DNA from: an uncultured Bacilli bacterium | GTDB lineage: Bacteria; Bacillota_I; Bacilli_A; RF39; UBA660 | Length of the DNA stretch: 41,359 nt | Assembly (NCBI GenBank): GCA_947626095.1 | Contig: CANQQV010000014.1 | Location: 1 to 41,359 of the forward strand | Direction of reading: 5' to 3' | Part shown: positions 16,513-31,759 of the stretch, piece after piece | Numbering within the stretch: the stretch's first letter is position 1 | How the letters are laid out: every line of letters begins with the position of its first letter | Position numbers and translations under genes: made by a program | Notes under the pieces: generated by a model | Databases searched by the model: none | What the model was told of the DNA's origin: nothing | What the model saw: the letters and a program-made list of their open reading frames with translations, nothing else

Positions 16513-16539
16513 AAAAAAGCTCTTTTATAGAGCTTTTTT
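16513..16539 (-). terminator. Terminator of the 434-aa NPETSD protein
   Basis: 11-bp stem AAAAAAGCTCT (16513-16523) with AGAGCTTTTTT (16529-16539), loop TTTAT; T run on the minus strand within the left arm. Almost identical to the terminator at 17956-17980, so the gene duplication included it. Confidence 0.85.
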
Positions 16540-17829
16540 ACATTTTATATAAATATATAAGCTTATACCAAATAGAGCAACGAATCCGGCAATTATAATA
16601 TCACTAGTTTCAGGGTTAGTTATTATAGGTATTTCTGGGATGATTGGAGGATTCTCTGGTTCTGGTTCTTTATATGTATATTCTTCATATGATAATACAG
16701 CTTCACTAGCATCATAGTTTTCATAAGCGTATTTACCAAATGGTGATGCAACTACTTTTTTTAGTAAGATACCAGCAACAGCAATTTTATTATTTGACTC
16801 GTCAACTTTTAAATCTTCATATGATGATAAACCAGTTACTTGATCAATCATTTCGCCATCTTTACTGTATAAATTGATACGAGAATAATAGAAATTAGTA
16901 TTCAAATTACCTACTGTATCCTCTAAAACTACAATTTTGTCTTTGAAGAATTTAACATTAGTAAATGGTCCAACATCAGTTTTTATTTCTGTTTGATTAT
17001 TGTTTTTATCAGTATATACAATTGTATTATCGTCTTTTATTTCAACGATCTCACCATCACGATAATCGACCTTATTTTCATCTAATTGATCTTTTACTTG
17101 AACAATATATTTTGGAAAATAAGTATTAAGATTATTATAATTACAATCTATTTTATTAGCAGTTTTAAAGTCTTTATCAACACTATAAAGTTCACAAACT
17201 TCAGAAGAGGCTTCTTCTTCAGGAGTTAGGTCGTTTAATTCAACTTCATCTGTTGTTAATAAAACAATTAAATTATCATTAGCAATTGTTATATAATATT
17301 CATCATAATCGAAATCTGATAAAGCAATACTTCCTACTTTAGCCAAACTATCACTATCATATTTATATAAGCTAAAATTCTTACTATCAGCACGAACTTG
17401 ATTTATACCATGATCAGTTCCATTCATGTAATAGAAATTATCATTTAAAGATCGAATATCTACATGAGATAATGTATCATGTTCATCATCTGAACTTCCC
17501 AAATCATTTTCACTAGTTTGACTCTTAACTATTGTATCATTATTGTAAACATAGTAATCTTGATGACTTAAAACATCTAAACGTTCTTTATTATCATAAA
17601 TTTTATGAGAATATAATGTATCATAATTAACATTAACTAAAATGTTATTTTTAATGTATTCAACATCAGAGTTATATACTGTCCAGCCATACGCTCCCAA
17701 ATCTTTAATATTTACGCTATTTACTTGAGTTAAAAATTCATTTTTTGGTTTAGAAAAACTAACGATTAAACCAACTGGTAGCATAAGCAAAAATATAAAA
17801 GCAGCAAATTTAAAAACTTTCTTTTTCAT
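16525..17829 (-). CDS. Exported protein with NPETSD sorting signal (paralogue A)
   Basis: 434 aa. A Lys-rich N-terminus and hydrophobic core (about residues 5-25) form a signal peptide. The middle is built of short strand-rich units (e.g. YYMNG, LYKYDSDSL, NTIVYTDKNNN, INLYSKDGEMI), suggesting a beta-propeller-like fold, which is inference. A proline-rich spacer (EPEPENPPIIPEIP) leads to NPETSD at 405-410, a hydrophobic stretch and the tail KCKKAL. This is the layout of a sortase signal with NPxTS in place of LPXTG. It is a tandem paralogue of the next gene, most alike at the two ends. A strong promoter (17862-17891) and an AGGTGA ribosome site precede the ATG. Confidence 0.85.
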   Translation of the reverse strand: MKKKVFKFAAFIFLLMLPVGLIVSFSKPKNEFLTQVNSVNIKDLGAYGWTVYNSDVEYIKNNILVNVNYDTLYSHKIYDNKERLDVLSHQDYYVYNNDTIVKSQTSENDLGSSDDEHDTLSHVDIRSLNDNFYYMNGTDHGINQVRADSKNFSLYKYDSDSLAKVGSIALSDFDYDEYYITIANDNLIVLLTTDEVELNDLTPEEEASSEVCELYSVDKDFKTANKIDCNYNNLNTYFPKYIVQVKDQLDENKVDYRDGEIVEIKDDNTIVYTDKNNNQTEIKTDVGPFTNVKFFKDKIVVLEDTVGNLNTNFYYSRINLYSKDGEMIDQVTGLSSYEDLKVDESNNKIAVAGILLKKVVASPFGKYAYENYDASEAVLSYEEYTYKEPEPENPPIIPEIPIITNPETSDIIIAGFVALFGISLYIYIKCKKAL

Positions 17830-17861
17830 AACTTCACCTACATATCTTATTTTATAATTAT

Positions 17862-17891
17862 ATTATATATTTTTAACTTAATAATTGTCAA
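17862..17891 (-). promoter_or_regulatory. Promoter of paralogue A
   Basis: On the minus strand TTGACA (17891-17886), 18 bp, TATAAT (17867-17862). Just upstream, AACCG (17890-17894) and CGGTT form an imperfect inverted repeat overlapping the -35; it could be an operator, but this is weak. Confidence 0.6.
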
Positions 17892-17955
17892 CCGACTGAT
17901 AATATATTTACAATGGTTAGGCGGTTAAATACTAATTAGAATTTTATAACATAAT

Positions 17956-17980
17956 AAAAAGCTCTTTTATAGAGCTTTTT
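17956..17980 (-). terminator. Terminator of paralogue B
   Basis: 10-bp stem AAAAAGCTCT (17956-17965) with AGAGCTTTTT (17971-17980), loop TTTAT, same sequence as at 16513-16539. Confidence 0.85.
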
Positions 17981-19622
17981 TGCATTTAATATAAACATAT
18001 AAGCTTATAATAAATAGTGCAACGAATCCAGTAATTATAATATCACTGGTTTCTGGATTAGATATAATAGGTATTTCTGGGATGATTGGAGGATTTTCTG
18101 GTTCTGGCTCTGGTTCTTTATAAGTATATTCTTCATATGATAATACAGCTTCGCTAGCATCATAGTTTTCATAAGCGTATAGACCGAATGATGAAGAGAT
18201 TACTTTTTTTAATAAAATACCGGAAACAAGGAATTTATTATTTGCTTCATCAACTTTTAAGTCTTCATATGATGATAAACCAGTTACTTGATCAATCAAT
18301 TCTCCATCTTTACTATATAAATTGATACGTGAATAATAGAAATTAGTATGTAGATTACCAACAGTATCTTCTAAAGCTACTATTTTGTCTTTAAAAAACT
18401 TAACGTTAGTAAATGTGCCAATATCTGCTTTTATTTTTGTTTTATTATTATTTTTATCGGTATATACAATAATATTATCACTAGTTATTTCAACAAGTTC
18501 ACCATCACGATAATCTAATTCTCCTTCAGTTAATCTATCCCTTACTTGAATAACATATTCGGGAAAATAAGTGTTAAGTTGATCTAATTTACAATCAATT
18601 GGTGTTGCAGTTTTAAAGTCTTTGTCAATGCTATATAGATTACAAACAGTACTTGATGTACCATCTGCTTCAGCTTCTTCATATTCATCATCATATTCTT
18701 GGTGAAGATATTCTAAATATTTATTGTGTTCTTCTTCATATTCGCTAGGTGATAAGCTGTCAACTGCTTCATCTTCATCGACATCAAATTTTTCATAATA
18801 CAAATAATCTGAGTATGTTTCACAATATTCTTCACAATATTCTTCTATATTTTCGTATTGATTATCTGTATTAGCTGTTTTAAATTCTTCTCCATATTCA
18901 TCTTCTATGTATTCTATATAATCATCATGATATTTATCTTTGTTAGCTTCATAAAAAATTTTAAATAGTTCATCGTAATAATAAGAGCTAAAGTACTCGT
19001 TTTGATTATCTTCACACCATCTTTCAAAGTTAGAAAGAAGATCGGTATAATATACATCTTCATCGGTTAATAAGATAATAAGGTTATCACCAGATTTTTT
19101 TAGGTAAAACTCATCGTATTCATCATAATAATCATTAGATAATTCGATATGGGCGACTTCTGCTAAAGTATTATTGTCATATTTATAAAGAGTTGAATCA
19201 TCCATATAATAGAAATTATTGTTTAATGAACGAATATCAACTGTTGGATTTCTTCCATAACCATCATACATATCAAATTCGAAAGTTTTGTTATTAATTA
19301 GAGTACCATTATTGTAAATATAATAGTCTTGATGTCTTTTAATATCTGTTCTTTCAATTTCTTGATCATCAGGCCAAGTTGGAACCTTGTGAGTGTATAA
19401 AGTATCATATTTAGTGTTTACTAAAACGTTATCATTTAAATATTCAACGTCAGAATTATAAACAGTCCAACCATATGCTCCTAACTCTTTAATATTTACA
19501 TCAGATATTTGATTTAAATATTCATTCTTAGGTTTAGAAAAACTAACAATTATACCGACTGGTAACATAAGTAAGACTATAAAAGCAAGTAATTTAAAAA
19601 TATTTTTCTTCATTTTTAACAT
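17967..19622 (-). CDS. Exported protein with NPETSD sorting signal and acidic Tyr-rich insertion (paralogue B)
   Basis: 551 aa, a tandem paralogue of the 434-aa gene downstream: signal peptide (about 8-28), the shared GAYGWTVYNSDVEY box, the shared SSYEDLKV and YAYENYDASEAVLSYEEYTY boxes, Pro-rich spacer, NPETSD at 522-527, hydrophobic stretch and KCKKAL tail. It differs by an insertion at about residues 193-320 that is packed with Asp, Glu and Tyr and contains three Cys (203, 263, 267). The insertion sits at one loop, where paralogue A has only about a dozen residues. Two in-frame ATGs (19622 and 19613) compete; AGG lies close to the first and far from the second, so the start is uncertain by three residues. 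A TATAAT lies just upstream. Confidence 0.85.
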   Translation of the reverse strand: MLKMKKNIFKLLAFIVLLMLPVGIIVSFSKPKNEYLNQISDVNIKELGAYGWTVYNSDVEYLNDNVLVNTKYDTLYTHKVPTWPDDQEIERTDIKRHQDYYIYNNGTLINNKTFEFDMYDGYGRNPTVDIRSLNNNFYYMDDSTLYKYDNNTLAEVAHIELSNDYYDEYDEFYLKKSGDNLIILLTDEDVYYTDLLSNFERWCEDNQNEYFSSYYYDELFKIFYEANKDKYHDDYIEYIEDEYGEEFKTANTDNQYENIEEYCEEYCETYSDYLYYEKFDVDEDEAVDSLSPSEYEEEHNKYLEYLHQEYDDEYEEAEADGTSSTVCNLYSIDKDFKTATPIDCKLDQLNTYFPEYVIQVRDRLTEGELDYRDGELVEITSDNIIVYTDKNNNKTKIKADIGTFTNVKFFKDKIVALEDTVGNLHTNFYYSRINLYSKDGELIDQVTGLSSYEDLKVDEANNKFLVSGILLKKVISSSFGLYAYENYDASEAVLSYEEYTYKEPEPEPENPPIIPEIPIISNPETSDIIITGFVALFIISLYVYIKCKKAL

Positions 19623-21222: not shown

Positions 21223-21252
21223 AAAAAGAAGTATTAGAAATCTAATACTTCT
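21223..21252 (-). terminator. Terminator of the ABC exporter gene
   Basis: Stem AGAAGTATTA (21227-21236) with TAATACTTCT (21243-21252), 6-nt loop, then five T on the minus strand (21227-21223). It covers the stop codon; the amidase -10 begins only a few bases downstream. Confidence 0.8.
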
Positions 21253-22970
21253 GGACTATAAAGTTTACGATATAGTTCTGATGATGACATTAGTTCATCA
21301 TGAGTACCATAATTTAAAACTTTTCCTTCGTCGATAACATAGATTAAATCGGCATCCATAATAGTAGAGAGGCGATGAGCAACTATTATTATGGTATGAG
21401 TTTTAACTAAGTTATCAATAGTCTTTTTAATATATTCTTGCGATTCATTATCTAAGGCAGATGTCGCTTCATCAAAAAGGATAACCTTGGTATCTTTTAA
21501 CAAAGTTCTAGCGATGGCTATTCTTTGTTTTTGACCACCTGATAAATTAACTCCACCTTCACCAATGACAGTTTCATAGCCGTTAGGTAAAGACATTATA
21601 TAATCATCGATATAAGCTTTCTTACAAACACTTCTTATCTCTTCTAAAGTTACATCTTCTTTAACTATTTTAAAGTTATCAAAGATAGTTGAATTAAAAA
21701 GATATGGGCTTTGTCTAATAACAGAAATATTAGTACGTAGAGATTCTTCACTTAGATTTTTAATGTCTTCACCATTAACTAATATTTGCCCTTTTGTAGC
21801 ATCAAAGTATCTCAATAGTAAATTAAATAGTGTTGATTTACCTTGACCAGATTTACCAACGATCGCAATTTTTTTGTTAGGAGCTAGTTTTAAATTTAAA
21901 CCATTTAAAATTAACTCTTCTTCATCTCGATATTTAAAACTAACATTTTTAAACTCAATATTTATCTTTTTATCATTATTAATCTTCTTTTGACCAAATT
22001 TTTCATCTTCATATAATATATTATTTAATATTTCATCAATTCTTTTTAAAGAAACAGTTACTTTATTATAAGAAACACCAAATTCAGATAATGACTCAAC
22101 TACTTCATCAATACGCCAGATATATTTTTCAATAACGACGAATGAAGCTAGAACGATAGTACCATTAAAAACTGAGATACCTAAAGTAAGTAAGATAATA
22201 AATTGAATAACAAAGTAACATAAATTATTTAAAGCATAATAGAAGGTTTCATCAACGCCTATTTTTCGTTGCTTTTTAAATAAATTTTCAACGTTAACAT
22301 ATATTCGACGATTAATATTATTTTTAATACCTAAGGCTTTGATTTCTCTGATACCGGTAATATTTTGCGTTGCTACTTTAATAAATTCATCAGAATCTTT
22401 TTTGATAGCTTCTTGAGTCTTTTTAATCTTTGGATAATAAATATTAGATAAGATAAACATAACAATACATAGTACTAATAGCTCTAAACCAACGTATATA
22501 GAAATACTAAAAGAAATGCCAACAATGATAATCGCAATTATCAAACGACAACTTAATTTTATCAATTTATTTAATAATTCTAATATACGATCAGGATCAG
22601 TATACATACGATTTATAAACTCGCCGACACCGATTTCTTCAAAGGCTATAGCAGGTAGATTAGTTACTTTAGTATATAAATCTTTACTAACATTTTCCAT
22701 AAATTTCTTTTCTAAATAATTATAAATTAAGTCAGTAGGTACTTGAATTATTACCCACATGAAGATGATTAAACCACTCCAACACATTAAATATTTAATA
22801 AAATCATAATTATTACCTGTAGCTAATGCTTGAAAAGCGTTTGCCCAGACGAAAGCATTAATAAGTGGTTCAAAGTATTTGGCAATAGTTAAAATAATAT
22901 AAAGAAATAATTTGAGTTTATCATTTTTAAAATATCGAAATAATATTTTAAAATTTTTTAAACCTTTCAT
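21234..22970 (-). CDS. ABC exporter half-transporter (permease fused to ATPase)
   Basis: 578 aa. The N-terminal exporter domain has about six membrane segments (within residues 1-300). The C-terminal ATPase has Walker A GKSGQGKST, signature LSGGQKQRIAIARTLL, Walker B VILFDEATSALD and the switch His in VAHRLSTI. There is no C39 peptidase domain. The family exports lipids, drugs or peptides; a homodimer is expected because no partner gene is adjacent. The start is the ATG at 22970 with GGAGG; an in-frame ATG at 22982 overlaps that ribosome site. It lies downstream of a 26-codon ORF and a hairpin with a U-tract, so expression may be controlled by attenuation, or the peptide may be its cargo. Confidence 0.93.
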   Translation of the reverse strand: MKGLKNFKILFRYFKNDKLKLFLYIILTIAKYFEPLINAFVWANAFQALATGNNYDFIKYLMCWSGLIIFMWVIIQVPTDLIYNYLEKKFMENVSKDLYTKVTNLPAIAFEEIGVGEFINRMYTDPDRILELLNKLIKLSCRLIIAIIIVGISFSISIYVGLELLVLCIVMFILSNIYYPKIKKTQEAIKKDSDEFIKVATQNITGIREIKALGIKNNINRRIYVNVENLFKKQRKIGVDETFYYALNNLCYFVIQFIILLTLGISVFNGTIVLASFVVIEKYIWRIDEVVESLSEFGVSYNKVTVSLKRIDEILNNILYEDEKFGQKKINNDKKINIEFKNVSFKYRDEEELILNGLNLKLAPNKKIAIVGKSGQGKSTLFNLLLRYFDATKGQILVNGEDIKNLSEESLRTNISVIRQSPYLFNSTIFDNFKIVKEDVTLEEIRSVCKKAYIDDYIMSLPNGYETVIGEGGVNLSGGQKQRIAIARTLLKDTKVILFDEATSALDNESQEYIKKTIDNLVKTHTIIIVAHRLSTIMDADLIYVIDEGKVLNYGTHDELMSSSELYRKLYSPEVLDF

Positions 22971-22983
22971 AATTTCCTCCATT

Positions 22984-23010
22984 AAAAAATAACTATTACA
23001 TAATAGTTAT
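22984..23010 (-). terminator. Hairpin with U-tract between the short ORF and the ABC gene (candidate attenuator)
   Basis: Perfect 9-bp stem ATAACTATT (22989-22997) with AATAGTTAT (23002-23010), 4-nt loop, followed on the minus strand by a run of T (22989-22984) and then the ABC ribosome site. Only one G-C pair, so it may be weak or conditional. Confidence 0.5.
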
Positions 23011-23023
23011 AAAAGTGTTTTCT

Positions 23024-23104
23024 CTAAATTGCGTGAGAAAATGCTCTTACAAATCTATTACTCATTCTAATTATTAAATTTTTATTTTGAATTTTATTGC
23101 TCAT
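23024..23104 (-). CDS. 26-aa basic peptide ORF in the leader of the ABC exporter
   Basis: ATG at 23104-23102, stop TAG at 23026-23024, with GGAG seven bases before the ATG and a consensus promoter upstream (23135-23163). The peptide starts MSNKIQNKNLIIR, repeats MSNR and ends RAFSHAI; it carries Lys and Arg only (five basic residues, no acidic ones) and could form an amphipathic helix. Its start region GTGAGAAAATG (23112-23102) is complementary over 11 bp to codons near its 3' end (23043-23033), which can also pair with GAGAAAA around the stop (23024-23018). It may be a regulatory leader peptide of the BmrB kind or an exported peptide. Both are inference; no family recognised. Confidence 0.6.
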   Translation of the reverse strand: MSNKIQNKNLIIRMSNRFVRAFSHAI

Positions 23105-23134
23105 TTTCTCACTCCTCTTCTAAAATTCCCCTAT

Positions 23135-23163
23135 AATATAACATTAAACAAAAAGGATGTCAA
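23135..23163 (-). promoter_or_regulatory. Promoter of the short ORF and ABC exporter
   Basis: On the minus strand TTGACA (23163-23158), 17 bp, TATATT (23140-23135). The -35 is inside the descending arm of the terminator of the upstream gene (23150-23185). Confidence 0.65.
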
Positions 23164-23185
23164 CTTTTTTTGGTTGACATCTTTT
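23150..23185 (-). terminator. Terminator of the zinc-ribbon membrane protein gene
   Basis: GATGTCAAC (23156-23164) pairs with GTTGACATC (23173-23181), extended by a G-U and A-T pairs to 13 bp; 8-nt loop. On the minus strand it continues CCTTTTTG, a U-tract. Confidence 0.75.
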
Positions 23186-23186
23186 A

Positions 23187-24455
23187 TTATTTAGAATATT
23201 GATTTACTTTATTACTATAATCAGATAAGAGATCACTATAATCTTTATTTTTCGTTAACTCTAAATTATTGTAGACATGATCATAATCAATAATAATCTG
23301 TTCAATTTGAGTATACATATCTAAAAGTTCACTATCATCTAAATTAGCAGGATCTTGTTCGATTTTAGCAATATCATTTTTTAATAAACCAATTACATTA
23401 CTATTTATACGATCAACATATATTCTAGTTTTATTATAAATAATACTATTGCTAGGTATTTGATTAAGCGCATAATAAGATTTGTTGTAATCACGGTTAT
23501 TATATAAATCAATAGCTTCGTAGAAAATTCGAGAATCATTGTAATTATCATCAATATCATTAATTAAGCTTTCGTAATTACTACTTTCTAAAGCTCTTAC
23601 ATAGTAATCATCTTCTCTAACAATGGCATATTCATATAAACCACGGAATAAATCTTTATATCTAGTAGTTGCTGTATTAAATTCAGCTTGAGAAACATAC
23701 TCTGTATCATAATATTCTTGTAACCATTCATTACTTTTAGCTTTAACTTTATTTTGAACTTCAGCTAAAACATCTTCATCATCTTTAACTTCTTCTAAGA
23801 TATTAGAAATATCTTCAGTTTTACCACTAGTATAATAAGTTTCTAAAGCTTTATTTAAATTTTCTTCAATCTCGGTAGTTGTTGGTTTATTAGCTTTTAA
23901 TAAAGTACTAACACAAAAGAAAAGCAAACCAACTACCACTAGAGCTATAAGGCCGGTTACAACTAATACTTTAGTTCTTTTATTAACACTTTCTTTAGTT
24001 TCTAAAGATGTTGGTGGTAATTCTTCTTTGGCTGGTTCTTCGGGATTTGGAGCTACTGGTTTCTCTTTTGTAACCTCTTCTTGAACTGGAATATGGGTTT
24101 CATCTTTTGGGGATTCAACTATTTGAGGTGTTTTAGCTTCGGCTTCTTCGTTGACGCTATTTATTTGTTTATTAATATCTTCTAATAAAGAGAATTCATT
24201 TTGATCTTCAATTGGTTTGATTGTTCTAGTTTTTTCTAAAGAGACATTTTCTTCAGCAAATTTTTCAGCTAAAGAATTTAACATATCGTTATCAGCTTCG
24301 TTAACATCTGGGGTTTTATTTGCTGTTTTTAAAACAGGAAGTTCAAAATCTTCAGTTTCAATATGTTTTTTTTCTGATTTTGGTACACTACTGCCACAAA
24401 ATGGACAAATAGAGCTATTTTCATTCACTTCCATACCACACTTTAGACATTTCAT
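23187..24455 (-). CDS. Zinc-ribbon, single-pass membrane protein of unknown function
   Basis: 422 aa. An N-terminal zinc ribbon (C3, C6, C17, C20 in MKCLKCG...CPFCGSS) is followed by an acidic, Glu/Pro-rich disordered stretch (about residues 30-158), one membrane segment (about 163-185) and an acidic Asn/Tyr-rich extracytoplasmic helical domain (about 190-422). The order resembles zinc-ribbon membrane proteins such as the TcaA/YvbJ type, which sense or act at the envelope, but I would not assign it firmly. The ATG at 24455 has AAGGGTG, and a TATAAT lies directly upstream. It diverges from pyrG. Confidence 0.8.
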   Translation of the reverse strand: MKCLKCGMEVNENSSICPFCGSSVPKSEKKHIETEDFELPVLKTANKTPDVNEADNDMLNSLAEKFAEENVSLEKTRTIKPIEDQNEFSLLEDINKQINSVNEEAEAKTPQIVESPKDETHIPVQEEVTKEKPVAPNPEEPAKEELPPTSLETKESVNKRTKVLVVTGLIALVVVGLLFFCVSTLLKANKPTTTEIEENLNKALETYYTSGKTEDISNILEEVKDDEDVLAEVQNKVKAKSNEWLQEYYDTEYVSQAEFNTATTRYKDLFRGLYEYAIVREDDYYVRALESSNYESLINDIDDNYNDSRIFYEAIDLYNNRDYNKSYYALNQIPSNSIIYNKTRIYVDRINSNVIGLLKNDIAKIEQDPANLDDSELLDMYTQIEQIIIDYDHVYNNLELTKNKDYSDLLSDYSNKVNQYSK

Positions 24456-26862: not shown

Positions 26863-26869
26863 TCTTTTA
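26844..26869. terminator. Bidirectional terminator between the YitT-like gene and giant surface protein 1
   Basis: AAAAGACTA (26845-26853) pairs with TAGTCTTTT (26860-26868), 6-nt loop. T-rich tracts follow on both strands, stronger on the minus strand. The stem sequence recurs at the end of the second giant gene (31935-31962). Confidence 0.75.
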
Positions 26870-29800
26870 TCTTATTTTAATAAGTAAGAATGCTACACCA
26901 CCTAATGTAACAAATGATATAGCGACAACAGCCATAATGATAACTTGGTTAGAAATTTTTTTCTTTGGTGTTTCAGTTGTTTCTTTTAGAACTTTTTGTT
27001 CTTCATTTGTTTCAACTTCATTATCTTGTTCTTGGTTTTCTTCAGTTGCTTGTTCATCGTTAGTAGTTTTGTTTTCTTCTACTTTATTATCTTCTACTTT
27101 AGGTGTTTCTTCTTTATTAGTTGGTTCTTTCTTTGAAGTACTCGGTTTGGTTGTTGTTTCTTTACTTGTTGTATTTTTATCAGTTGTTTCTTTACTCGTT
27201 GAGCTACTATTATTATCTTCTTTTTGATCAGATTCAGTTGGTTTTACTTGTGGTGTATTTTCACTTGGCTTAGTTTCTGAACCACTAGGATTACTTGGAG
27301 TTGGATTTGTTGGTGTAGGTTTTATTGTATTATCCTTTTCTCTAATAACAAGGATTTCAGTTTCATATCGTTCATGATTTTCGTCACCAAGGAAGATAAT
27401 TTTAATAACATTTTCCCCTTCCTTTAGATTTATATCAGCATCTTTCCATTGCCATTTATCTGTTAAAGGAATTTGATCTAATCTAGTAGTATCACTAGAT
27501 ACGGTCATTTCTGGATGAATCATGTTTGTTGGCTTTATAGCTTTATTAATTGTGTATGTAGCAGTTAATTTACCTTCGTACATACCAGTACCTGTAATAG
27601 TTACAGTATGATTACCAGCATTAGTTAGTTCACTAAAATCTAAAGTGTAATCAACGTTTTCAGTTAACTCATGGCTAGAAATATTGCTATTTAAAGGAGA
27701 TAGCGTCATAATTTCAGCAACAGAATCATTTTCTTCTTCTGGTAATTTTGGTACTGATGGAAGACTCTTTCTAACTTTAACAATTACATTATGTTCTTGA
27801 CCATTATAATAAAGATTATCACTTTCTATTACTACTTCATAATGTTCATTATTTAGTTTTACTTTTTCTTCACCAGCTGGTTTTATTGTTACTTGAATAT
27901 ATTCAGTTGTTGTATTGCCATCACTATCAGTAACAGTTATAGTAACATGATAAGTACCTGCTTCTTCCCAATTAATATCTGATGTAATTGTTGCATCTTC
28001 TATTGATAGATTTTCATCTTCTTGATCAGAAATAGTTATTAAAGATTTAAAATCTTCCAGTGCTTTTCGGCTTTCTTCAGGAACCGGTAATGTATATTCA
28101 AAACTTTTTTCAGTAATATTGATTTCTGGATGATGACCATTTTCTTTAACTATGGTTATTGTTACTTCGACATTTTCATAGTTTTCAGTATCATCATATA
28201 CAGCAATTGCTTCATTTGAACCAGTTTTTAAAGGCATACTTTGATCTTTCCAATGCCAATTATGCGGTAATTCAACTTCTTCTAAAGTTTCTTTATCGGC
28301 ATCAACACATATTCCTTCAGCAATAGATATTTCTGGTGTTTTAGCTTTAGCAATATCAAACTCTAATTCTTTTTCACCATCATAGGCACCTAAGCCAACA
28401 AGAGTAATTTTACCTTTACCGGCTTTAATATTATCTTTATATTCTAGATAATAGTTATCATTTAAAATTAATTCAGTATCTCCATCTTTGACTGTTACAA
28501 AAGGCTTTATTTCACTACCAGTATATGTATAACCATTAGTAACATAACTTACATGTAAATCATTAACATCCTTAAATGAAGTTAACTTATTTTCATAGAT
28601 TTTAAACATAGAAGCGACAACATAATCGTAAGATGAATCTAAAGATGTAATCTTAACGTATTTGGCTCTTGTTGGAGTAGATAATGTATACGATTTGACG
28701 TTATTATTTTTTGGCCATGATATTTCATTTGTAACTACATCCCAATTTTTACCATCAAGACTAACTTCTATTTTCGCTTTGGTTATAATACCCAGATCAC
28801 TAACTTTACCAGGAATATATTCTAATTTAGAAAGAAGAATTGATTTATTATTCAGCTTAATAGTAACTGTGGCATTCTTATCACCTTTTGTTGAAGTCCA
28901 GGTTGTATGGATATCGCCATCAACCAATTTATTTTCTTCATCTTCATTTAATGAACTTGATGTTGTAACGGTCTGGCGAGAAAATGGAACATATGAATAT
29001 TCTTGATTTTCAGGAATAGGTTCTAATTCAAATATTCTTGGAGCACTTGGTAAGTAAGTCTTTGTATAACCGTTTCTTACAACAATCCATTCGCCACCAG
29101 TTTTACTAAATTGTGGTTGTTTTTCGCTAAATTTATGCCAATCTAAATAATTATAAGCTACTGTTGGTTCATACATATGCATAAAGAATTCATAAATATC
29201 ATCATCAGTTTTTAATTCAACCCATTCAGCAACGTTTTCATCGATACCAGTAAATTTTTGCTCCTCAACATTTTGCTCAATATTGTCTGATTCAGAGCCT
29301 GATCCTTCAGTTAAGTCAATGAAAACAAAATTATCAATATTTTCTCTTGGTGTTGAAAGGAAATGAATAACTATATCATTTTCTTCATTTAGTTGATCAA
29401 TCTTGTCATTTAAATCAATTTTTGTTTGACCATCGGTTACTTGAAACCATTCAGTTTTTTCACTAATTTTTTTGTGTTCAGCATCATATTCATAATTTAA
29501 TGTATATTCAAATGCCCATGGTTTTTCTTTAGCGGCTGGACCAGTAAGCATTAAAAAGCCGGCATTTTCTCCGTCGAATGAGAAAGTAGCAACTGTGCTA
29601 TCGCCTTTAACACCCTTTAAATATTTAGCAATATCATTAATTGCGCCGTATTGTAAATAATCATTTTTAGTATACTTTGATTGTTCATCTAATGTTGTAT
29701 TTAAAGCTGTTTCATAAGCGACATAATTATTTTGAATATTAGATGAAAATAGTTTTAATAAATCATACATAGGAAGTGGAAATTCTTTAAGATCGTTCAT

Positions 29801-31759
29801 TATTGTTTGCGCCACTTTATAATAATTGTTATCAGTTGTTGATTCGTCTTGTAAAAGAGCTTGAATTAAACCATACCAAGAATCAACATTATAATTTTGA
29901 ACATGTAATGCTCGTTCATAGGCATTTATTTTAGCTTTAATATCAGTTCTAACATCAGCAATTAAATTATAAATAAAGGCTTCTTTATATTTATCAAATT
30001 CATCTAGAGCTCTTTGAGCGATTAAGATGTAAGCTGCATTATTTGTATCAACCCATTTATATGTTTTACTACCCCAGTCAAGGAGCATTCTTTCACCTTT
30101 GTAAGATCTTGCCCAACCAGCGGCAGCATTACCTATCCCCCATATTCTTGCACCTGTTGCTTCATCTATACTTGAAACGAAATATGCAGCATGACCTGGT
30201 TGAGATACTAAACTAGCAGGTACACCATACGCCATTTCAATATTTGAACCTGTACCAGCTAAGGAACCACAAACGCCATCTTCTTCCCAAATCGTCCATA
30301 AACGAAGCGGAGCTTTTTCACCAGTTTCAATACCAAAGTGATTTAAACCATACTTAGTATTACAAACAGCACCTCTTTCATAGCCTTTATCTGTTTGTGA
30401 TTTATGTAAGTTTCTTGAACTAGAAGAACAATAATCTGAATTTTCTTTATAATACTTAGGATCTTCGTAGTTCCATCTAAAACCACCATCATAATAAATA
30501 TAGTTATATGGATTTTTATATCCTTCACGACCATAAGGGGTTTTACCATTTAAAGTCATTTGAGTATACCAGTTTAACCAAGGAATCTCTTCATCACTAA
30601 TTCGATTGTTAACAACCCAACGCATTTCTTCAATCTCTAAATCAGTAAAAATTTCTTTTTCAAAATGAGTAGAAACACCATCATAAGTATAACCATCGGT
30701 AAGTAGTTTTTTTATAACTTCATATCTTTTTAATGGATAAGATGGAGTTCTGACTGGTTCAACTGGTTTATTAGCAGTTTGCCAGAAGTTAACATCACTA
30801 GCATAAGCAAGTGAGATAGCCATCATCATTTTTTTATAAGTTTTACCATATGTTGGATCTTTTAAATCGTCTTTATATTTAAAATATACTTCTTCAAAGA
30901 CAGTTAAAGCTTGAAGATAATTATTACCTTCAGGAGTGCCACCTAATAAGTATTCTTCTAAATTATTTTCGTCTTTAAATAGCCATTCAAAAAATTTAGT
31001 ATTACGATCATTTTTATTTACAAACGCTTGAAGAATAGGATAGCCAACACGTTTAACTAAAGTTCTTTGTAATAATTGAAGTTTTAGTTCTTTATTTTTA
31101 GCTATTTCTCCGTCACTTTGGCTTTGTAAAATAGTATCATATTCATCAACTGTTTTAATCCAATCAACTGTAGGTTGTTTAGTAGCATCGTATTTATGAG
31201 AATCATATAACATCGCATCAAAATATACAGCGTGGTCACTACTATTATCACCATTTTTATCAGCTACTAATTTTAACCATTTATAATCAGTAATTGATAC
31301 TACTATTTTCTCAGCTTCACTATCACCTTTTAAAGGATTACTAGTTCTTAGTAAATGCCAATCATTAGCTTCATAACTATTAGCTTTAGAACCATATATG
31401 TAGAATTTAACGTTACCTAAATTACCGCGACTAGCATCAACGCCAACATAACTTTGGAAAGTATCAAAATTAGTATAATTTCTTAAATCATAAATAATGG
31501 TTGAAGTAGCATGTGCATATAAAGCATTCATTGAATATGTTCTTTGGTTATCGATAATTAAAGAAATCATTTCGTTGCTTTCATTTTTATTCTTTTTAAA
31601 TGTTCCATAACCTACACTAGTAAAGGCGGCATCAATATCAGATAAATAGACGTGGGATGGTTCAGCAGCAGCTAAAAGAATAATTAGCGGTTCATAAGGG
31701 GCAAAAAATAAAGCAAAGGCAACTAGAATCATTGTAATTTTTTGTAAAAACTTTTTCAT
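26867..31759 (-). CDS. Giant surface protein 1: NPCBM + transglutaminase-like + F5/8C + Ig-like repeats
   Basis: 1630 aa. Signal peptide (about 1-32); NPCBM-type carbohydrate-binding domain (about 36-190: YAHATSTIIYDL, YVGVDASRG, SSDHAVYFDAML); a helical region; a transglutaminase/papain-like core with C497 (DGVCGSLAG), H523 (PGHAAYF) and N544 (WGIGN); an F5/8 type C (discoidin) domain (about 920-1055); then alternating Ig-like modules, one kind with GKGKITLVGLGAYDG and one with WHWKDQSMPLKTG. A Thr/Ser/Glu/Pro-rich stalk (about 1480-1600) ends in a membrane segment and the tail KIR. No LPXTG or NPxTS motif, so the anchor is probably the membrane helix. Likely binds glycans and may cleave or cross-link proteins; activity is inference. 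It is a tandem paralogue of the next gene. The ATG has AGAGGGA. Confidence 0.85.
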   Translation of the reverse strand: MKKFLQKITMILVAFALFFAPYEPLIILLAAAEPSHVYLSDIDAAFTSVGYGTFKKNKNESNEMISLIIDNQRTYSMNALYAHATSTIIYDLRNYTNFDTFQSYVGVDASRGNLGNVKFYIYGSKANSYEANDWHLLRTSNPLKGDSEAEKIVVSITDYKWLKLVADKNGDNSSDHAVYFDAMLYDSHKYDATKQPTVDWIKTVDEYDTILQSQSDGEIAKNKELKLQLLQRTLVKRVGYPILQAFVNKNDRNTKFFEWLFKDENNLEEYLLGGTPEGNNYLQALTVFEEVYFKYKDDLKDPTYGKTYKKMMMAISLAYASDVNFWQTANKPVEPVRTPSYPLKRYEVIKKLLTDGYTYDGVSTHFEKEIFTDLEIEEMRWVVNNRISDEEIPWLNWYTQMTLNGKTPYGREGYKNPYNYIYYDGGFRWNYEDPKYYKENSDYCSSSSRNLHKSQTDKGYERGAVCNTKYGLNHFGIETGEKAPLRLWTIWEEDGVCGSLAGTGSNIEMAYGVPASLVSQPGHAAYFVSSIDEATGARIWGIGNAAAGWARSYKGERMLLDWGSKTYKWVDTNNAAYILIAQRALDEFDKYKEAFIYNLIADVRTDIKAKINAYERALHVQNYNVDSWYGLIQALLQDESTTDNNYYKVAQTIMNDLKEFPLPMYDLLKLFSSNIQNNYVAYETALNTTLDEQSKYTKNDYLQYGAINDIAKYLKGVKGDSTVATFSFDGENAGFLMLTGPAAKEKPWAFEYTLNYEYDAEHKKISEKTEWFQVTDGQTKIDLNDKIDQLNEENDIVIHFLSTPRENIDNFVFIDLTEGSGSESDNIEQNVEEQKFTGIDENVAEWVELKTDDDIYEFFMHMYEPTVAYNYLDWHKFSEKQPQFSKTGGEWIVVRNGYTKTYLPSAPRIFELEPIPENQEYSYVPFSRQTVTTSSSLNEDEENKLVDGDIHTTWTSTKGDKNATVTIKLNNKSILLSKLEYIPGKVSDLGIITKAKIEVSLDGKNWDVVTNEISWPKNNNVKSYTLSTPTRAKYVKITSLDSSYDYVVASMFKIYENKLTSFKDVNDLHVSYVTNGYTYTGSEIKPFVTVKDGDTELILNDNYYLEYKDNIKAGKGKITLVGLGAYDGEKELEFDIAKAKTPEISIAEGICVDADKETLEEVELPHNWHWKDQSMPLKTGSNEAIAVYDDTENYENVEVTITIVKENGHHPEINITEKSFEYTLPVPEESRKALEDFKSLITISDQEDENLSIEDATITSDINWEEAGTYHVTITVTDSDGNTTTEYIQVTIKPAGEEKVKLNNEHYEVVIESDNLYYNGQEHNVIVKVRKSLPSVPKLPEEENDSVAEIMTLSPLNSNISSHELTENVDYTLDFSELTNAGNHTVTITGTGMYEGKLTATYTINKAIKPTNMIHPEMTVSSDTTRLDQIPLTDKWQWKDADINLKEGENVIKIIFLGDENHERYETEILVIREKDNTIKPTPTNPTPSNPSGSETKPSENTPQVKPTESDQKEDNNSSSTSKETTDKNTTSKETTTKPSTSKKEPTNKEETPKVEDNKVEENKTTNDEQATEENQEQDNEVETNEEQKVLKETTETPKKKISNQVIIMAVVAISFVTLGGVAFLLIKIR

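Follow-up and report, generated by a model that had tools for sequence, protein, structure and literature searches.

A leader reading frame ahead of an ABC exporter gene of uncultured Bacilli as a probable ribosome-sensing attenuator

The exporter gene and its leader

The window, i.e., the whole stretch of 41,359 nucleotides analysed here, harbors on its minus strand a gene (21234..22970) that, according to domain matches, encodes an ABC exporter of 578 amino acids with one membrane and one ATPase domain. The protein is a type IV (B-type) ABC exporter, carrying both domains in one chain and matching Sav1866 (2hyd) over residues 10-572. Its start codon was taken at position 22970; a longer frame from 22982 would place the exporter ribosome site (GGAGG, 22980-22976) inside the gene. 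The domain scan disclosed no C39 peptidase domain in the exporter, in agreement with a previous reading of this DNA from its letters only (hereafter, the sequence-only reading). No second exporter-like gene was detected (E 1e-15) in the flanks at 79 of 81 exporter loci, and a plasmid search with the exporter retrieved eight records, all distant relatives with less than 60% identity. The gene upstream of the leader (24455-23187, minus strand) has a weak zinc-ribbon match (23.1 bits in Pfam, where the cut-off is 25). Elsewhere in the window, two tandem paralogous proteins of 434 and 551 amino acids are encoded at 16525-19622, with a C-terminal membrane anchor recognized by eye; the longer one contains an inserted acidic stretch and matches no NCBIfam or Pfam model. 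A secreted-looking protein of 1630 amino acids, whose charged low-complexity C-terminal region is followed by a membrane anchor (by eye), is encoded at 26867-31759.

The leader precedes the exporter on the minus strand, and all the elements listed in the sequence-only reading (promoter, ribosome site, 26-codon ORF, hairpin with U-tract, and exporter ribosome site) are found where that reading had placed them. The promoter (TTGACA-17-TATATT, with TG before the -10 box; 23163-23135) has 11 of the 12 consensus letters, and similar hexamers are visible in relatives. It is followed by the leader ribosome site GAGGAG (23117-23112) and by an ORF of 26 codons plus stop (23104-23024), encoding MSNKIQNKNLIIRMSNRFVRAFSHAI. 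The -35 box TTGACA of the leader promoter falls within the 3' arm of the terminator-like hairpin that ends the upstream gene (23181-23156, GATGTCAAC...GTTGACATC); the same overlap of hairpin and -35 box was observed in two other loci (L024 and L012), ahead of a gene that we take to encode ribosomal protein S16.

Four segments of the leader can be paired with each other in different ways. Segment 1 (23102..23117) is made up of the leader ribosome site and the start codon, and its part GTGAGAAAATG (23112-23102) is complementary over 11 bp to segment 3, CATTTTCTCAC (23043-23033), located in the 3' part of the ORF; the helix formed by these two segments would be the anti-antiterminator of the OFF state. 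The alternative partner of segment 3 is GAGAAAA (23024-23018), a partial copy of segment 1, referred to as the decoy. Both pairings had been proposed previously and are borne out by sequence and folding. Segment 2 (23062-23044), the antiterminator strand, lies inside the ORF, and pairing tests and folding support its complementarity to 23014-23000. The latter is segment 4, i.e., the terminator 5' arm with its flank (23014-23000); together with the terminator hairpin (23010-22989) and a U run extending to 22984, it makes up the last part of the leader (22984..23014), supported by folding and covariation. The antiterminator joining 23062-23044 with 23014-23000 is an element absent from the sequence-only reading.

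The folding of the 146-nt window leader has a z of -3.0, a value that none of 200 shuffles equalled. The minimum free energy (MFE) structure given by RNAfold for these 146 nt is the antiterminator structure, with GAGAAAA (23024-23018) paired with CATTTTCTCAC inside it. The window terminator is A+T-rich and weak (-5.1 kcal/mol); it falls below a strict terminator pattern, whose scan reports there only the hairpin of the upstream gene. A possible small helix around the leader ribosome site, P1, joins a 5' arm (GAATTTTA, 23121..23128) with a 3' arm inside the ORF (TAAAATTC, 23089..23096); it is present in the window MFE structure, its z falls below -2 in only nine of the 63 leaders, and it is not claimed here as an established element.

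Distribution of the leader and fate of its reading frame

A DNA search recognized the leader at E < 1e-15 in nine of the 16 genomes of the same genus, the window's own included. The exporter was found at E < 1e-100 in ten of them, the tenth copy (G010) being cut at the contig end, with its upstream DNA missing. According to the sequence-only reading, relatives that kept the exporter and lost the ORF would have spoken against it; within the genus, all nine exporter genomes with upstream sequence, the window's among them, keep both the leader and the ORF. The six genomes devoid of an exporter match (E 1e-100) gave no leader match better than 3.5e-4, and G003 contains an exporter paralogue of 36% without leader.

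A wider set of 82 exporter loci was composed of the best 80 of 168 from named genomes (58-91% identity), the window, and L007. The named genomes are metagenome-assembled 'Bacilli', 'Tenericutes', 'Erysipelotrichaceae', and similar, several of them from rabbit, goat, sheep, or deer gut according to the record name. The leader was recognized in 64 of the 82 loci, 63 automatically and one (L116) later; the statistics reported below refer to the 63, L116 entering no helix or ORF statistic. The start of L120 was set by hand, and L098, lacking an ATG, was excluded. The latter locus (upstream of 3001) has a degenerate leader, with a terminator and an antiterminator-like strand and no ATG at the expected start; it may use another start codon or be a copy in decay. 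The remaining 18 loci, L098 among them, have no recognized leader, two of them offering only 36 (L085) and 98 (L124) upstream bases. When leader presence is mapped onto the exporter tree, 12 changes (gains and losses pooled) are required, versus a shuffled mean of 16.6. The terminators misplaced in some loci (e.g., L076, L081, and L111) by the first automatic hairpin finder were all redone, and those of L077 and L104, kept in the counts, are probably still misassigned. A strict pattern search of the order found the leader in 5 of 385 genomes, with an exporter homologue (37-100% identity) downstream of each of the five places; so narrow a pattern does not allow prevalence to be estimated from this figure.

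In all 63 leaders, the reading frame runs without a stop for at least 17 codons beyond the start codon, as compared with 8 and 2 leaders for the other two frames. Since the rule for picking leaders (the best ribosome site, with a minimum ORF length of 10 codons) biases this test, the same rule was imposed on the shuffles: the dinucleotide-shuffle expectation is 11.0 of 63, and 25.1 with the selection rule. Translation of the ORF in the cell is presumed. In each of the 63 leaders, the core of segment 2 lies within reach of the footprint of a ribosome on the ORF.

The encoded peptides behave differently from the frame. Among six close relatives, the 13 variable codons are all nonsynonymous and none is synonymous; three other relatives have 7 nonsynonymous and 3 synonymous changes over 10 variable codons; and in the first nine codons of eleven leaders of the MRLLVT clade, 4 of 4 variable codons are nonsynonymous, with no synonymous one. 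In this same clade the ORF ends anywhere from codon 18 to codon 39, and the RNA pairings mostly persist. Judging from these codons, the peptide sequence is under no visible protein-level selection, and the conserved property is the passage of a ribosome over segment 2 rather than the peptide product.

These data bear on the second option put forward in the sequence-only reading, a leaderless exported peptide with its own exporter. The product of the ORF would then be a secreted bacteriocin or signal that leaves the cell through the neighboring ABC exporter, and the pairings would be incidental or autoregulatory. The adjacency and co-conservation of ORF and exporter, the frames open throughout the 63 leaders, and the lack of any acidic residue in the window peptide would agree with such a product. 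However, besides the replacements just described in the six relatives and the variable ends of one clade, the peptides of distant clades share little outside the constraints of segments 1 and 3, the frame in which segment 3 is read changes from clade to clade (by eye), and the exporter has no peptidase domain; this option is regarded as highly improbable.

Compensatory change, alternative pairings, and ribosome position

The pairing of the start region with the rest of the leader has a median z of -3.8, and the value is below -2 in 56 of the 63 leaders. In order to follow it column by column, 37 of the 63 leaders, hand-chosen for diversity, were aligned (alignment A1), leaving aside near-copies, the MRLLVT clade, L104, and the terminator-less leaders L057, L058, L007, and L120. 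In A1, the start helix and the terminator have 84.4% paired cells, 117 two-sided changes, and a covariation score of 0.379; slid controls, a comparison that favors a structure derived from the sequences themselves, reached at best 55.8% paired cells, 33 two-sided changes (range 19-33), and a score of 0.149. None of 500 shuffles of A1 attained the paired percentage, the two-sided changes, or the score, and 21 of 500 attained the count of further pair types. Two-sided changes affect 10 of the 12 pairs of the terminator hairpin. On this comparative basis, the pairing of the ribosome site and start codon with the 3' part of the ORF is kept through compensatory change.

Strong long-range pairing, covariation, and alternative structures are also what would be expected of a small-molecule riboswitch or of a protein-binding attenuator in which the ORF is fortuitous. 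Nevertheless, Rfam gave no match for window positions 22800-23400, where the best hit (E 4.2) stayed well short of the gathering scores, and, on 15 relatives, reported only a tRNA and no leader match; the conserved helix is formed by the very ribosome site and start codon of an ORF that is open in all leaders, while the other frames are mostly closed; and the interior of the ORF is very variable among leaders, unlike an aptamer. Such an explanation appears quite improbable.

The antiterminator shifts its position within the ORF and cannot be aligned in columns, so the arms were swapped between leaders instead. The ORF interior pairs with the terminator arm at a median z of -2.05 (below -2 in 33 of 63 leaders). 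Segments 2 and 4 of the same leader pair at a mean of -9.9 kcal/mol, versus -6.6 kcal/mol with dissimilar foreign arms (63 leaders); for 31 non-redundant arms, the mean own-minus-foreign difference is -3.0 (P 3e-8). The own arm is better than at least 90% of the foreign ones in only 33 of the 63 leaders. Changed pairs can be seen by eye, e.g., TAATAG/CTATTA in the window, AGTGACTAT/ATAGTCACT in L075, and CAGTAGT/ACTACTG in L094. A mutually exclusive antiterminator is present, by computation, and the compensatory stem changes that the sequence-only reading had recommended to look for are found in the start helix and terminator (A1) and, by arm swaps, in the pairing of segments 2 and 4.

Within the antiterminator loop, whose folding has a mean z of -1.65 (below -2 in 25 of the 59 leaders admitted to this test out of 63), segment 3 finds a local partner of at least five paired bases in 47 of the 59, on its 5' side in 32 and on its 3' side in 15. 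The position of this partner follows the clades: GAGAAAA after the stop codon in the closest clade of the window, and before segment 3 in most others; the MRLLVT clade has a partner of at least five bases in only 4 of the 13 leaders tested. Many of the partners look like the leader ribosome site, as in GTGGGA, GTGAGGAT, GTGGAAAC, and GCGGGA facing TCTCGC, a likeness that is not independent evidence since both pair with the same strand. The second GAGAAAA of the window fits the role of a decoy capturing the 3' part of the ORF in the antiterminator state.

The effect of a ribosome was simulated by partition-function folding at equilibrium, with a footprint from -14 to +16 around the P site. In the window, the probabilities of terminator and antiterminator are 0.64 and 0.19 without ribosome, 0.00 and 0.96 with a ribosome at codons 1-5, 0.06 and 0.89 at codon 6, and about 0.8 and 0.0 at codons 7 to 17; the terminator is weaker (0.66/0.28) once the stop codon has reached the A site. 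Over the 63 leaders, the mean antiterminator probability, 0.12 when free, is highest (0.39) with the ribosome at codon 4. It drops to 0.02-0.03 for codons 12-18, and a second, smaller rise brings it to 0.24 at codon 27 (47 leaders). The gain produced by a ribosome placed at codon 2 is 0.215 (63 leaders), versus 0.009 with shuffled interiors; at equilibrium, only 18 of 63 leaders have a gain above 0.3, taken as a strong switch, versus 9 of 504 shuffled ORF interiors. The antiterminator prevails over the terminator in 24 of 63 leaders at codon 1 and in 33 at codon 4; it also does so in nine free leaders, including three (L054-L056) of the six-member clade of the window. With a few extra 3' bases, the MFE structure of the window is the antiterminator even when free and, taken together with these free-state antiterminators, this implies that the OFF decision must occur during transcription. 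In the model the gain is greatest at early ribosome positions, so that the exporter should be made mainly with a ribosome at the very start of the ORF.

The most coherent reading is that the leader is a ribosome-mediated attenuator sensing the occupancy of the ORF start, and we consider it very likely. It is based on the anatomy of the leader, its conservation, the compensatory changes, and the folding predicted for each ribosome position. The first option of the sequence-only reading, a ribosome-sensing attenuator, accordingly receives strong support from covariation, arm swaps, and the open ORF. Without a ribosome, segment 1 would pair with segment 3, segment 2 would remain unpaired with segment 4, and the hairpin, which we infer to terminate transcription in the cell, would form and keep the exporter off. 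A freely moving ribosome would cross segment 2 and prevent its pairing, so that the terminator would form as well. A ribosome held on codons 1-6 would block segment 1 and free segment 2, with the decoy GAGAAAA capturing segment 3; segment 2 would then pair with the terminator 5' arm, transcription would continue, and the exporter would be made. The presence of a ribosome at the ORF start would be decisive and the content of the peptide irrelevant. The probable signal would be a ribosome-targeting drug that halts ribosomes at or just after initiation, and the output would presumably be drug export; the exporter is of the multidrug type, and a sensor indifferent to the peptide is predicted.

Two other kinds of ribosome-dependent control have been considered. 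In an arrest-peptide attenuator, a specific nascent peptide would stall the ribosome together with a specific drug or metabolite. The architecture resembles that of Erm-type leaders, codons 2-6 contain many L, K, I, and R, and the first codons are alike within the MRLLVT clade. Still, no arrest motif common to the clades was seen by eye (only the composition was counted), codons 2-6 vary, and control in the window is predicted by ribosome position within codons 1-6 and not by sequence, which makes this alternative rather unlikely. The general logic would be identical in a trp-type attenuator sensing an amino acid or tRNA charging; yet no run of a single amino acid near the start is common to the leaders (by eye), and the leader precedes an exporter gene instead of a biosynthetic operon. 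It seems hardly conceivable that the leader belongs to this type.

Output variants and comparison with known systems

In L057 (2828-2987), L058 (2827-2969), L007, and L120, a terminator was not found and a hairpin at the exporter ribosome site apparently replaces it. In the first three, the hairpin arms CCTTT/AAAGG appear by eye to cover this site, and pairing of the 5' arm with the interior of the ORF yields -9.9 to -12.2 kcal/mol; footprint folding gave the expected shift in L057 and L058 and none in L007. Translation is apparently the step on which this logic acts in these three leaders. In the very compact leader of L120 (= L009), segment 3 overlaps an arm near the exporter ribosome site, and AAGATTAGA, located in the ORF, is opposed to TCTAATCTT, which comes immediately after it.

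A model built on 37 leaders (R1) was run with stricter filters on 149 genomes of the class and matched, at E up to 0.001, four places in three genomes: the window's own, a member of the family (G053), and a member of another family (G459). Absences in R1 searches mean little, since a search with default filters missed the window leader (81.5 bits) and others. The match in G053 precedes an exporter of 40% identity. In G459, a like-built leader (L142, 1501-1800; E 1.1e-4) precedes an Lsa-like ABC-F gene, cut at the locus end, which scores 684 bits with the NCBIfam model of Lsa-family ABC-F proteins (below the cut-off of 750) and 446 bits with the general ribosomal-protection ABC-F model (above the cut-off of 380). 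Loci with a leader of like design (L142 and L145) occur in two of the five genomes of that genus. G034 contains an L142-type locus at 78% identity, with terminator arms that are changed yet still pair and a start helix that looks weaker by eye. Among the other R1 matches, the place L143 was rejected, being located at the end of what is presumably a pyruvate kinase gene, and three extra weak matches in the window's own genome (31.2, 27.4, and 24.8 bits) have no leader architecture on reading.

The match obtained with a model derived from exporter leaders ahead of a member of an antibiotic-protection family speaks for a drug as the signal, as a single case that may be due to convergence. It is possible, and we advance it only tentatively, that a lineage-wide class of attenuators reads start-codon occupancy and not the peptide, with a strand complementary to the ribosome site that pairs either with the real site (OFF) or with a decoy copy (ON), the latter located before or after this strand according to the clade, and with termination or ribosome-site masking as outputs on a pump or an ABC-F protector. 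If this were true, the sensor of the class would answer any block at initiation or in the first few codons.

The compensatory changes expose the plan of a ribosome-sensing control of exporters across many uncultured, mostly gut-derived Bacilli. No description of this leader was found in the open-licence literature, and the systems closest to it are compared here within the available text of the respective papers. In patAB of Streptococcus pneumoniae, a terminator, an antiterminator, and an anti-antiterminator are predicted before an ABC exporter (PMC4319486); unlike the case of the window, the terms 'leader peptide' and 'open reading frame' are absent from the main text of that paper. In the leaders of cplR and other ARE-ABCF genes, a short uORF, a terminator, and anti-SD control are described, the uORFs being likely stalled by post-initiation drugs with little context dependence (PMC10201436). 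As far as that text indicates, they differ in having short conserved peptides (e.g., MR[I/M] and MAGN) and a soluble ABC-F target, the target in the window being an exporter.

In the available text on vmlR of B. subtilis, the uORF lies within the anti-antiterminator, and a stalled ribosome prevents this structure and permits the antiterminator; a further hairpin partly covers the ribosome site of the target, an ABC-F ribosome protection factor (PMC9226507). Compared by description, the stalled-ribosome logic is alike, while the ORF of the window itself carries the antiterminator strand. For bmrB-bmrCD of B. subtilis, the portion of PMC4191407 available describes an ABC multidrug exporter preceded by a small leader ORF, an intrinsic terminator, and an antiterminator and anti-antiterminator that are both predicted; the system responds to ribosome-targeting drugs by induction, and reporter expression drops when translation of the leader is blocked. 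In that system, the terminator is embedded in the coding region, two genes encode the exporter, and the role of the anti-antiterminator is called unclear. The window leader can be likened to it by architecture, sharing an ORF, a terminator, an antiterminator, and an anti-antiterminator before an ABC exporter; it differs in having the terminator downstream of the stop codon, a one-gene exporter, and an anti-antiterminator formed with the ribosome site of the ORF. As far as those pages go, the helix built on the ORF start is a candidate role for the kind of anti-antiterminator that the bmrB paper left open. The best reading, by analogy with the systems as described there, is that the leader would share the attenuation mode of bmrB-bmrCD and vmlR, and that it would be distinguished from them, on the same partial descriptions, by an anti-antiterminator built on the ribosome site, a decoy copy, indifference to the peptide, and an apparent change of output in close relatives.
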